From Trichocoleus sp. FACHB-46 (GTDB lineage: Bacteria > Cyanobacteriota > Cyanobacteriia > FACHB-46): a DNA stretch of 64,000 nt. Below the pieces are notes generated by a model. It was not told the DNA's origin. It ran no database searches and was given only the letters and a program-made list of their open reading frames with translations. Below, piece after piece: positions 6,677 through 11,310 of this stretch. Both the position numbers and the translations under genes were made by a program. Position 1 is the stretch's first letter. Each line of letters starts with the position of its first letter. The stretch lies in assembly GCF_014695385.1 (NCBI RefSeq), contig NZ_JACJOD010000031.1, forward strand, positions 372,001 to 436,000, in the 5' to 3' direction.

Positions 6677-7093
6677 TTATTGCCCAACCTTCTCCAACAT
6701 GTTAAACATCAAAGAATGCAGTGCTAAGAGGGCCAAAACTGCATAAGCAATGGTGCAAAGCTCAATACTACTCAGGGCACCCCAGGCCCAACCCCAGGAA
6801 ATCGAGCGGCGATAAGCCAGAAACCAAACCACGCCACTGAGGACAGCCCCCAACCAAATCCAGCGATAACTATAGAAAACGAATTGCGTTATCAGGGGAA
6901 TTGACATGCCAATCGCAATGCTTTGAAACTGCGGCACAAGCCAAAGAGCTAGAACCGCAACAGCGGTAGAAGAGACTGTAACTATACCTGCAAATAAGGT
7001 AAATGGCTGATTTGGTTGACGTGGGCTATTCATAAACTTTGCTAGACCTCGTTTCATCTTCCTAATTCTTGTGTGAATTGAGGAGAAATTCAT
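6677..7093 (-). CDS. Hypothetical integral membrane protein (about four TM segments)
   Basis: 138 residues from the ATG at 7093, which is preceded by GGAAGCAGG as a ribosome-binding site. The frame is open to a TTG at 7147, but that start has no such site. Four hydrophobic segments are visible: LFAGIVTVSSTAVAVLALWL, an ITQFVFYSY segment, WLGAVLSGVVWFLAY and IAYAVLALLALHSLMF. The N-terminus is basic (HTRIRKMKRG), favouring a cytoplasmic N-terminus. No family was recognised. It converges with tex, leaving only 29 bp between the stops. Confidence 0.65.
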   Translation of the reverse strand: MNFSSIHTRIRKMKRGLAKFMNSPRQPNQPFTLFAGIVTVSSTAVAVLALWLVPQFQSIAIGMSIPLITQFVFYSYRWIWLGAVLSGVVWFLAYRRSISWGWAWGALSSIELCTIAYAVLALLALHSLMFNMLEKVGQ

Positions 7094-7323
7094 CCTGCTT
7101 CCATTTGGTCTAGGGAGCTGAGTGTGGGTTGAGCTTCTGGCCCCCAACGCTTCAAGTTGCTGATTTATCCAAGCGATCGCCGCACTTGATTAGTTTCATT
7201 GGTTTGTTTCACTTCTGTTTTAGCAATTTTCAAACGAGTTCAAAGCTAAACGTGGCAAGAAAAAGTAGAGGCGATCGCTCCTTAGGAAGGAGAAATAGGG
7301 CGATCGCTGAATTGAATAGTGAG

Positions 7324-9870
7324 TTACTGATTAAGAATTGCTGTTACTTGTTGCTGAACTTTCTCTAATGCCTCACGTCTTTCCACAATCCAACTTCTAT
7401 CAGTTTCACGTTGCTCTAATGTCTCAGCGTGAATTTTCTCTTGTTGCTCTAGTAAACTCTCATATAGAGATATAGCCTGCTCAATAATCTGATTCAACGC
7501 ACTCATTGGTTGCTCAAAAGTAGAGTTTATAATTTCGTTTCGCTTCTGGGAAACTTTTTCCTTCGATTCATCAAACTTTTTAAGCCCGACTTTTAAAATT
7601 TCACCCTTGATCTGATTCTTTAAGCCGTCGAAGTCTAGCATTCCTAGGCCAAAGGAGCCTGCAACAGCAGCAGCTAAACTTGCCAAAATAACAGAGACTA
7701 GACCTACAGGTGTAAAGAAAATTAATGCGGCAGCCAAAGCTCCTCCTGCTCCAATACCTCCGAGAAAACCTCCTACTCCTGTAAAATCATCACTTACGCT
7801 TGTAATCCCAAGTTTCAACTGCTCACTGAGATTAGTTTTTACTTGGCGATCAAACTCTTTTGTTTCTGATTTGATAATGTCTAGCTCAGCCGAAATCTTT
7901 TTATTTAAGCTATCTAGGCTAGTTTGAAGAATAGGCTGTAAGCTTGTTTGTCCCCATTGATCTACTTCTCTGAGGAGATCTCTGACAAACTGATCAGTAT
8001 AGTCTTGGATGAGTTTTTTCTGGTTCCAAACAGGGCTATAACTCGACTGCCAATCTTGGCTTTTTGAGGTCAGGGACTCAGAAACGCTTTGATACCATTT
8101 CTCCCAAGAGTTAGCAGCTTTTTGCTTAGTTATATTCTGTATATCTCTTGCCAGTTTTTTTAATTTAACATGACGCCCACTAACCTCTCCAATCTTCTCT
8201 ATAATCTTTCGTTTCTCTGATTCAGATATAATTATTTCTCCATTCAATAGGCTTTCAGCTTGGTTCATACTGCTTAAACCCTCTTGAATAAGACCTAGAA
8301 CTTCATATGCACATTGTTTAACTTGAAAAGAACCTCGCTCTGTCACAAGAAAATCTTCAATTGATTTAGTTAAATTTGAAAACGCATCAAAGTATTCATT
8401 TTTACTGCCAGACTTAATTGATTTTAGAGCTGCTTTGGCAGAGATGTAATGAATACGATCTTTCGTGGTTATGGACAAAGTATGACTTGCAAATATTTCA
8501 GTTCTTTGGATTACATCTGCATGATCCTCTTCATCATCCAGGAGATCCATAAAATTGACTACTAAAAACAGATTTTCAGTAGAAGAATTTGAGCTATTTT
8601 TATTGAGCTGTCTTTTTATGTCTTGTATTAGTTCCTTCTCTTTTTCAGGAAGAAGACGCATCGCATTAGTCATAACTACAGCTACGTCTATGTCTTGAAG
8701 TAGCTTTTGAGTAATAGCAGTTCTTTCAGGATGTTCATTTAAGCCAGGAGAATCAATAATCTCAACACCATTTTTACATAATGCTAAGTTCGGATGCTCA
8801 AAAACAATTCTTTCTATCTTAGATTGTTCTAATTCATCACTACGATGATCTCTAGCTGCATCTTTGGAAATAGATGCTTTTTCTTTGTATTTGTCAACTG
8901 AAATCTCTTGATGCTCTCCGTCTTTATAAAAACAAGTAACACGCTTTTTGTCACCATACTTTAAAACTGTAATATTCCCACTACAAGGGATTGCACGTGC
9001 GGGTTGAATTTCTTCTCCTAGTAAAGCATTAAGTAATGTAGACTTACCCTGACTAAACTCTCCTACAACTGCCAGTTTAAATTTTTGAGATGTAAGCTTC
9101 TCAGATACTCTTTCTAATCCTTCAATAAGAGGATGAGCTATAAATTTACGCTCATTACAGCTTTGAAAAATTTGATACAAATCACAGCATGATTTCGATA
9201 ACTGTTTTTTGTAATTTTGAAATTCTTGAAGTTGCTTGTAGGAAACAACTTTTTGCTCAACATCTTCCTGTTCCTCTTGCGAGGCTAGCATAGCCAACAA
9301 ATCGTTCGCAGCATCAACAAAAATAGTATCCAGTAAGTGAAAACGCGCTGGATCGAGTTGGGATTTCAGCTTATCTATAATTCCCGGAGCTATATGTTCT
9401 TGATTTGTCAATCTAGCTTCTAAAGCCGTTAGATAAGCTGGCTCTATCTTTAGGAGGCTGCCGATTGCACCCAAATACTTTTTCTCCTGCGGGCTAATAC
9501 TGCCATCAACCGCAGACATTTCGTAGCTAATGCCAATCAGTAGTAGTCTCTCCGACTCTGATAAAGAATTTGTAAGGATCGATAGATTCTTAGACTGTGC
9601 ATAAACTTTTTTCTCTCGAACTCCTTTACTAATGAATTGTACTAATTGACGAGTATTACTATTAGGTGGAATAAAACGATTTATTGTTTTTTGCCATTGT
9701 TGCTTTTCTTCTTCTGTAATTTGACCGTCTTGCAACATTACCCCTTGCAGAACTGTAATCAGCGCAGATAAAAAAACGATAGATGGCGAAAGATCTTCTT
9801 GACGTAAATCTTGTCCCGTAATGCGTGAAAGCAGCTCAAGAGTTTCAGAGTTAATACTGCTAAGATCCAT
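7324..9870 (-). CDS. Dynamin-like GTPase with N-terminal TerB-like domain
   Basis: 848 residues from the ATG at 9870; a GTG at 9924 would add 18, and neither start has a clear ribosome-binding site. Residues about 30-150 look TerB-like, with two acidic metal-site motifs, LQDGQITEEE and AVDGSISPQE. A GTPase domain follows: P-loop GEFSQGKST (270-278), the switch threonine in CSGNIT, G3 DSPGLNE and a G4-like VNFMD. Near 695-745 is a glycine/alanine-rich hydrophobic stretch (GGIGAGGALAAALIFF), as expected for a membrane-inserting paddle, and the C-terminus is a long coiled coil. Bacterial dynamin-like proteins remodel membranes and some act against phage. The gene is visibly AT-rich and has no HIP1 octamer, unlike most neighbours, suggesting transfer. 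It diverges from the gene at 10009. Confidence 0.88.
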   Translation of the reverse strand: MDLSSINSETLELLSRITGQDLRQEDLSPSIVFLSALITVLQGVMLQDGQITEEEKQQWQKTINRFIPPNSNTRQLVQFISKGVREKKVYAQSKNLSILTNSLSESERLLLIGISYEMSAVDGSISPQEKKYLGAIGSLLKIEPAYLTALEARLTNQEHIAPGIIDKLKSQLDPARFHLLDTIFVDAANDLLAMLASQEEQEDVEQKVVSYKQLQEFQNYKKQLSKSCCDLYQIFQSCNERKFIAHPLIEGLERVSEKLTSQKFKLAVVGEFSQGKSTLLNALLGEEIQPARAIPCSGNITVLKYGDKKRVTCFYKDGEHQEISVDKYKEKASISKDAARDHRSDELEQSKIERIVFEHPNLALCKNGVEIIDSPGLNEHPERTAITQKLLQDIDVAVVMTNAMRLLPEKEKELIQDIKRQLNKNSSNSSTENLFLVVNFMDLLDDEEDHADVIQRTEIFASHTLSITTKDRIHYISAKAALKSIKSGSKNEYFDAFSNLTKSIEDFLVTERGSFQVKQCAYEVLGLIQEGLSSMNQAESLLNGEIIISESEKRKIIEKIGEVSGRHVKLKKLARDIQNITKQKAANSWEKWYQSVSESLTSKSQDWQSSYSPVWNQKKLIQDYTDQFVRDLLREVDQWGQTSLQPILQTSLDSLNKKISAELDIIKSETKEFDRQVKTNLSEQLKLGITSVSDDFTGVGGFLGGIGAGGALAAALIFFTPVGLVSVILASLAAAVAGSFGLGMLDFDGLKNQIKGEILKVGLKKFDESKEKVSQKRNEIINSTFEQPMSALNQIIEQAISLYESLLEQQEKIHAETLEQRETDRSWIVERREALEKVQQQVTAILNQ

Positions 9871-10008
9871 ATTTTTATGGCTGGTAATGTTGTTCGTCTT
9901 CCAATATGCCCAATTTTCTCCCACAGACGCCCAGATCCGGGTAAATACGGATACTTTTCTTAATCTCAGAATTTAGGCTGGAAAAATCTTCTGTAAGCGA
10001 GTAAAAGT

Positions 10009-11310
10009 ATGCTTTTCCAATTCTCTCCTGCGATACAGGCTGGTTTAGCTGCTGGAAAATACGTACAAGTTCTCACTTCTTCAGGAGCGCCATTAAGCAT
10101 TGCTAGAGACGCGACAACCGGGCAGTTCGTTGGTCATGCTGTCGGGTTGCTGAGTAATAGCGGCCTTCCTCTCAATCCACTGGCCGTTCCCCTGCAACTT
10201 GCTAATGCTGGAACACAAATGTACCAGATACATCAGATGCATCAAGGTTTTACAGCGGTGCAAGCTGGTTTACAGACACTTCAGGCTAGCGTTGGAGTTC
10301 TACAAGCGACAACAGCAGTCATTGGTGTGGGAGTCGCCGCTGGTGTAGCACTCTCAGCTGTAAATCTTTGGCAAACCCTTAAGCTTCGGGAAGATGTTAA
10401 ACAGCTTAAGCTTGAGGTTAAAGATGGGTTTGTCGATTTAAGAAAGGCACTTAAAGACCAAGGATCTGAAATTCTTTTAAAGATTGAGCAGATCGCGCAA
10501 GATATCAAATTCGAGCAGCATCGTCAGATTCTGATTCGAGCCTATGGGAGATTTCTAGAGGCCACTAAACTCATCAAAGCAGCAATGTCATGCATTGATA
10601 TAGCGATCCGAAATGCTGACTTAGCCAACGCACGACAAATGCTTGGAGAAGCTTTAGCAGACTACAGCAATCCCCATGTTTTGTCAGAAACTTCAGCCCC
10701 CGGCCAACTCCGTAGATTAGAGTGTGCTTGGGCAATTGAGCAAACAATCGCAGTAACTTATCAATTACAAAATGAATCTGCTGCTGCAAGCGATCGCCTA
10801 TCCCACCTCCGCAAGCGAGTTTGCCAAGATACGCTAGCTGTTGTAGAAGCTTGTGAGTCTGAAGAAGAATTAGACTTTATTTTTCCTGAAATCACCCGAA
10901 TTCATGATCACGATCTAGTTGCTTTAGAGTCTTGGCAAAACCATATTGATTGGGAGCGATCGCTGCCTGAATCAGAAAGAAAGTTATTGCAGAGTTCCAA
11001 TTCACTTGAGCTAGAGAGCACTGCTGATTTCAATACAGCTACTAGTGTGATGGAAATAGTGCCTGAACAAACTCTCTATGAGGACTTGAAGGATAAGTCC
11101 CATCTCTCCTCGCTGAGAGATCAGTTAGAACTACTCATCAAACCCAACTTACGGCAAGAGTATGCTGCCTATATTGATAAGCAAGCTATCGCTGCTGGAC
11201 ATAAAGCTTTAACTTCTGCCAACCTTCAGGAAGCCTCTAACCTTACCATTGCCAATCTTTACTGGTATTTCAAAGTCAGGGATGATTCTGAGCAAGAGTT
11301 AGAAGATTAG
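10009..11310 (+). CDS. Helical protein with one membrane segment, divergent partner of the dynamin-like gene
   Basis: 433 residues, ATG start. Residues 1-90 are Ala/Gly/Gln-rich. Residues about 94-120 form a hydrophobic segment (TTAVIGVGVAAGVALSAVNL) leading directly into a charged amphipathic helix (about 124-175; KLREDVKQLKLEVKDGF). The rest is predicted helical with no recognisable catalytic motif. A glycine-rich hydrophobic stretch followed by a long coiled coil resembles the hairpin of alpha-helical pore-forming proteins, but that is only a shape comparison. The gene is divergent from the dynamin-like GTPase over a short spacer, so the two may share a control region and work together. 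Two HIP1 sites occur inside it. Function unknown. Confidence 0.75.
   Translation: MLFQFSPAIQAGLAAGKYVQVLTSSGAPLSIARDATTGQFVGHAVGLLSNSGLPLNPLAVPLQLANAGTQMYQIHQMHQGFTAVQAGLQTLQASVGVLQATTAVIGVGVAAGVALSAVNLWQTLKLREDVKQLKLEVKDGFVDLRKALKDQGSEILLKIEQIAQDIKFEQHRQILIRAYGRFLEATKLIKAAMSCIDIAIRNADLANARQMLGEALADYSNPHVLSETSAPGQLRRLECAWAIEQTIAVTYQLQNESAAASDRLSHLRKRVCQDTLAVVEACESEEELDFIFPEITRIHDHDLVALESWQNHIDWERSLPESERKLLQSSNSLELESTADFNTATSVMEIVPEQTLYEDLKDKSHLSSLRDQLELLIKPNLRQEYAAYIDKQAIAAGHKALTSANLQEASNLTIANLYWYFKVRDDSEQELED

Follow-up and report, generated by a model that had tools for sequence, protein, structure and literature searches.

Between tex and leuS, within a window of 64,000 nucleotides from the cyanobacterium Trichocoleus sp. 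FACHB-46 (the whole stretch analysed here; contig NZ_JACJOD010000031.1, positions 372,001 to 436,000, forward strand), lie two divergent genes that we call P1 and P2. P1, on the minus strand, encodes a dynamin-like GTPase with a TerB domain, and P2, on the plus strand, encodes a protein with a membrane-type helix, of a nameless cyanobacterial family. Many cyanobacterial dynamin-like proteins are still without an assigned role in the cell, and the question that this locus raises is whether its two genes act as one system and, if so, what that system might do. A sequence-only reading of the window had proposed an uncharacterised membrane-acting pair on the strength of adjacency. We find that the two genes are linked across cyanobacteria, and that P1 of the GTPase type is a patchwork of divergent alleles that share one chromosomal site, beside a constant P2.

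At 84 of the 90 loci examined a P1-type partner adjoins P2, in almost every case less than about 550 bp away; the two genes thus form a genuine unit, as had been suspected. Their adjacency is kept across many cyanobacterial lineages and in two orientations: most pairs are divergent, and at seven loci the genes are co-directional with P1 upstream. P2 is truncated at three of the six loci without an adjoining partner; the other three lie where a contig ends, and for two of them a six-frame search reveals TerB. Across 386 evenly sampled cyanobacterial genomes, P2 was present in 39 (as fragments only in 15 of these) and GTPase-type P1 in 18, all of which also possess P2, adjacent in 17 and split over two contigs in one. 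Among 59 related genomes P2 occurs in nine, and full-length P1 with a second neighbour on its contig is always adjacent to it. A scan of 84,980 species returned 106 P2 relatives; the 80 listed are, judged by record title, all cyanobacterial. The pair is not syntenic in all close relatives: a third member species of the genus (G001; LeuRS 97% identical) lacks it between tex and leuS and carries P2 with a short GTPase-less partner at another site, beside a gene read as a protochlorophyllide reductase subunit. A remnant of the P1 stalk was also seen in a genome without detectable P2 (G232:C38:38846-39736).

Diversity within the pair is concentrated in one part of P1. Ten Nostoc loci occupy a single conserved site at which flanking proteins are mostly 85–95% identical, P2 is 92.5% identical and residues 1–120 of P1 are 93–97% identical; residues 400–790 of P1 fall into two or three discrete classes, with identity down to 32–50%. 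Between classes the synonymous divergence (dS) is 0.94–1.2 in these P1 blocks, against 0.24 in P2 and in P1 residues 1–160, which indicates that the blocks are old and exchanged, more than fast-evolving. Fast evolution alone was rejected as the source of P1 diversity, since dS is raised solely in the body of P1 and blocks switch class. One strain (L056) groups with L050 over residues 200–510, by 53 sites to 8, but with L060 over residues 519–678, by 55 to 9 (Fisher p 3e-17). A control dynamin of the tandem BDLP type, present in seven of the Nostoc genomes, has a mean identity of 95.6%, compared with 74.7% for P1 and 92.7% for P2. A permutation test of the pairwise homoplasy index (PHI) type gave 0 of 300 shuffles for P1 and 67 of 300, not significant, for P2; the control dynamin gave 15 of 300, from just 25 sites.

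Within the window's genus, P2 is 91% identical and the N-terminal 80 residues of P1 88%, while the rest of P1 is 31–49% identical. DNA identity between the window's genome and its sister species (G002) is 0.77–0.92 over P2 and about the first 80 codons of P1 and about 0.5 over the remainder; dS is 0.73–0.83 in the shared part and near saturation past it. This sharp drop inside the TerB part favours the foreign origin earlier proposed for P1, for which a gap in the HIP1 octamer is weaker evidence. The gap exists, extending from 7307 to 10790 as the longest of 116 in the window, but such a gap has a chance probability of about 0.17 and low GC reduces the expected HIP1 count further; hence we rejected it as proof of acquisition. 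P1 is indeed AT-rich (GC 0.35–0.38, against 0.488 for the whole window), as is that of the sister species, and its GC at third codon positions is 0.23–0.28, against 0.56–0.61 in tex and leuS. Related gaps between P2 and stalk identity are found at Microcoleus/Tychonema and Pseudanabaena loci. In a Microcoleus group with stalk-only partners, partner identity tracks P2 identity without excess divergence, which suggests, for the single group examined, that exchange is absent where the GTPase and paddle are absent.

The partner of P2 is modular. Among 86 P2 entries, 52 have a partner with TerB, GTPase and stalk, three with GTPase and stalk, seven with TerB and stalk, and 14 with the stalk only, the partner being truncated or missing in the remaining ten. 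Stalk-only partners are mostly about 340 residues long and TerB-stalk partners mostly 500–540; in both, the stalk profile is present at its two ends and absent in its middle, and the part present includes a C-terminal helix that bears a common motif. The hydrophobic paddle is found in 54 of 55 GTPase-bearing partners and in none of the 21 GTPase-less ones, the sole GTPase-bearing partner without a hydrophobic segment (L171) being interrupted by a stop codon. GTPase presence switches at least six times on the P2 tree, which gives no order of age for the forms, and four independent comparisons on well-supported branches all agree in direction, being too few for significance alone. At five Microcoleus/Tychonema loci with a stalk-only partner (L116, L119, L121, L122, L123), there is a separate gene for a TerB-like protein of about 148 aa at a distance of three genes, and therefore TerB may act in trans.

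By all sequence and fold features checked, P1 is a bacterial dynamin. The GTPase motifs, the two acidic TerB motifs and the hydrophobic stretch described from the sequence alone are all present: the P-loop GEFSQGKST and the G3 motif DSPGLNE are intact and their columns invariant in our alignment (A3), the TerB motifs read LQDGQITEEEK and AVDGSISPQEK, and the paddle reaches a maximum Kyte-Doolittle value of 2.43 at residue 729. The TerB region belongs to PF05099 (35.9 bits, cut-off 24.4). Foldseek placed BDLP (2j69) first for the P1 model (E 1e-19; template modelling score 0.49/0.61), followed by IniA and the C. jejuni DLP pair. As a dynamin of the BDLP/mitofusin type, P1 would hydrolyse GTP and remodel membranes. 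The model of P2 (predicted local distance difference test score 83) comprises a small N-terminal sheet, a Gly/Ala-rich hydrophobic helix and a helical bundle, in keeping with the segment and following helix noted earlier, and I105, G106, G108 and A117 of the hydrophobic segment are invariant across 44 sequences. Pfam, NCBIfam, PADLOC, PHROGs and PDB yielded no reliable family for P2 by sequence, and Foldseek against PDB and viral structures found nothing significant, with no match better than E 0.5. In several cyanobacteria the interval between menD and menB encodes a free-standing protein that resembles TerB and is about 40% identical to that part of P1 (G000:C31:38186-38770, which is L002; L024, L025), and the window's genome has three further dynamin-like genes in tandem (G000:C24:74443-80796; L003–L005) that are relatives of the Nostoc BDLP tandem.

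Table 1. Features of the P1–P2 locus, in positions of the window.
Feature	Position	Strand	Remarks
P1: TerB, dynamin-like GTPase, helical stalk, hydrophobic paddle	7324..9870	-	longer open reading frame to 9924 starts GTG
C-terminal helix of P1	7327..7554	-	residues 791–866; common to GTPase-bearing and GTPase-less partners; candidate P2 contact
Hydrophobic paddle of P1	7639..7794	-	residues about 711–762; absent from all GTPase-less partner forms
GTPase domain of P1	8365..9279	-	residues about 216–520; Dynamin_N E 5e-26
TerB domain of P1	9310..9882	-	residues about 15–205 of the long open reading frame; Pfam TerB E 1e-8
Breakpoint in P1 versus sister species G002	9600..9703	.	DNA identity 0.8–0.9 above 9703, about 0.5 below 9600
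Divergent intergenic region	9871..10008	.	138 bp; common to G002
CCGGGTAAATACGG element	9937..9950	+	ATCCG/CGGAT arms (CCG-N3-AAATACGG form); intergenic
P2	10009..11310	+	433 aa; nameless cyanobacterial family
Gly/Ala-rich membrane-type segment of P2	10300..10368	+	residues 98–120; Kyte-Doolittle 1.93

Both open reading frames were recovered as first described (7324–9924, minus; 10009–11310, plus). The annotated GTG start of P1 at 9924 is probably wrong, judging from the sequence of the G002 ortholog, which starts at an ATG equivalent to 9870, and this ATG is the likely start. Some form of the CCGGGTAAATACGG-type element is present in 18 of 59 divergent intergenic regions (the window and 17 other loci), within one group of pairs; a genome-wide regulon was rejected, since the window's genome has just one copy. 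Next to P1, a small hydrophobic reading frame of up to 156 aa (6677–7147, TTG start) has no family match and is absent from the equivalent place in G002 and G001. The tex-leuS interval varies in the genus, adding a nucleotidyltransferase/HepT pair and a PIN protein in G002 (L162) and holding HNH_5 and Uma2-like proteins in G001 (L160), and in Nostoc a purU-type gene lies downstream of P2. No third gene recurs among the neighbours of 34 diverse loci. Membership of P1 in a Ter (tellurite/stress) operon was rejected, the neighbours in the window being tex and leuS and the 25 commonest flanking-gene families including no Ter family.

How could such a pair work? P1 would be a dynamin of the BDLP/mitofusin type, in which a GTP cycle drives a stalk bearing a membrane-inserting paddle, and P2 would insert its Gly-rich helix into the membrane. 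Within Nostoc, P1 is constant at its TerB end and in its C-terminal helix, and variable in the GTPase, stalk and paddle; since the ends of the chain pack together in the BDLP fold, P2 probably docks on these constant parts, the C-terminal helix and the TerB half at the N-terminus. GTP-driven opening may then push the paddle into a membrane that P2 already holds. The GTPase, stalk and paddle would form the working and recognition surface, their old alleles being swapped by recombination, and the module would sense when the membrane is attacked, most likely by infecting phage, and remodel or permeabilise it. We liken the locus to conflict loci because old alleles are exchanged in the working part, the partner is constant, the distribution is patchy and decay is frequent; the module has probably been shaped by conflict. 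Phage is the most likely opponent because another bacterial dynamin, DynA of Bacillus subtilis, limits phage spread (PMC8844932).

Our preferred reading, to which we assign a probability of roughly 0.45, is that P1 and P2 form one membrane-acting module in which P2 is the constant partner and the variable part of P1 tracks a changing opponent, most likely phage. Defence is a candidate role of the pair. It is possible, if doubtful, that the pair is a recognition system built on a dynamin, with a constant P2 and balanced, recombining classes of GTPase, stalk and paddle alleles, serving as an antiviral receptor-effector or in self-recognition and losing its polymorphism together with the GTPase and paddle. 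A dynamin whose polymorphism so greatly exceeds that of its relatives in the same cells, set beside a constant partner, offers a test of whether some bacterial dynamins are immune or recognition proteins, with the naturally occurring forms that lack GTPase and paddle as ready controls and the allele classes as ready partners for swaps.

Several observations weigh against an antiviral module. Within allele classes dN/dS is mostly 0.16–0.30, reaching 0.58 in one short block, and does not clearly point to positive selection at individual residues. GTPase-less forms persist in several lineages, and hence the pair does not depend on dynamin activity; in Nostoc and in one Microcoleus/Tychonema clade it occupies a stable chromosomal site. 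An association with defence islands did not hold up: among 134 proteins encoded by the two genes closest on either flank of the 34 diverse loci, no defence family recurred beyond generic kinase/ATPase matches, a matched control set not having been run. Two scans of viral contigs found no copy of the module and no P2, and a tblastn search of a plasmid collection found neither P2 nor full-length P1.

Part of this evidence would suit a role in maintenance, in which P1 and P2 repair or stabilise plasma or thylakoid membranes under stress, TerB is a metal- or stress-responsive switch and the mosaic is tolerated recombination. The BDLP-like model of P1, the housekeeping neighbours and stable loci, the TerB relative encoded between menD and menB and the purifying selection within allele classes all speak for such a role. 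Tolerated recombination, however, leaves unexplained why an ordinary dynamin is 96% identical in the same genomes in which P1 is 75% identical, as it does the patchy distribution and decay, and we consider maintenance a minority prospect.

The properties of P2 raise another alternative, that it is a pore-forming, toxin-like effector restrained by its partner and released by P1 upon a trigger to cause abortive infection, the GTPase-less stalks being simpler controllers. Its constancy, its conserved Gly-rich helix and the stalk ends common to all partner forms would fit, and its best structural matches by VIA are the pore-forming domains of Cry3Aa and Cry11 (Z 10–11, about 170–190 residues, root-mean-square deviation about 3.5), with PirB also among them (Z 9.3). 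Values of Z below about 13 are common among helical bundles, however, so that these matches fall within the chance range, and Foldseek has no significant match; we consider a pore-forming P2 unlikely. We regard as very improbable a role in self-recognition, in which P1 of one allele class would assemble with no other class, be it inside a cell or between membranes in contact, and the locus would thereby label cells of filamentous cyanobacteria as compatible. Discrete classes in the GTPase, stalk and paddle between constant ends, polymorphism in the GTPase-bearing form with none in the stalk-only group examined, and the many hosts that are filamentous by record title agree with it, but the pair is also present in unicellular Synechocystis salina (L105). 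That an unrelated dynamin and membrane protein lie together by chance is scarcely credible and already contradicted by the counts of a linkage that spans many lineages without a recurrent third gene, in two orientations, and survives loss of the GTPase.

The module that we favour has relatives among known systems, and no paper describing the pair turned up in the literature searched, which lacked many subscription papers. Eleos, a dynamin-type defence system, consists of two adjacent dynamin-like genes, LeoA and LeoBC. P1 matches the PADLOC profiles of LeoBC (E 3e-16) and LeoA (5e-16) at 57 bits and shares the two-gene layout; however, P1 adds TerB, and P2 has no GTPase domain and matches neither protein, so the pair is not Eleos, because the partner of P1 is not a dynamin. 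In Nostoc BDLP1/NosDLP (2J68/2J69), the best PDB match of P1 by sequence and fold, the layout of GTPase, stalk and paddle is the same, but P1 adds an N-terminal TerB and the neighbouring P2, and the tandem-type BDLP of Nostoc is 96% identical between genomes where P1 is 75%. Cyanobacterial dynamins have been sorted by sequence and neighbours, and within some BDLP clades the gene neighbourhood is conserved, with a KGK protein as one example (Jilly 2018; PMC5827413); TerB appears nowhere in that text. The Campylobacter DLP1/DLP2 tethering pair (PMC6104087) is likewise a membrane dynamin encoded as a pair, and matches P1 in fold, but both of its members are dynamins, which P2 is not. DynA resembles P1 in being a bacterial dynamin and differs in that neither a P2 partner nor a TerB domain is known for it. 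Mx proteins are antiviral dynamins of eukaryotes in which the stalk region decides specificity, and whereas they change by substitution in a loop, P1 changes by the exchange of whole blocks.

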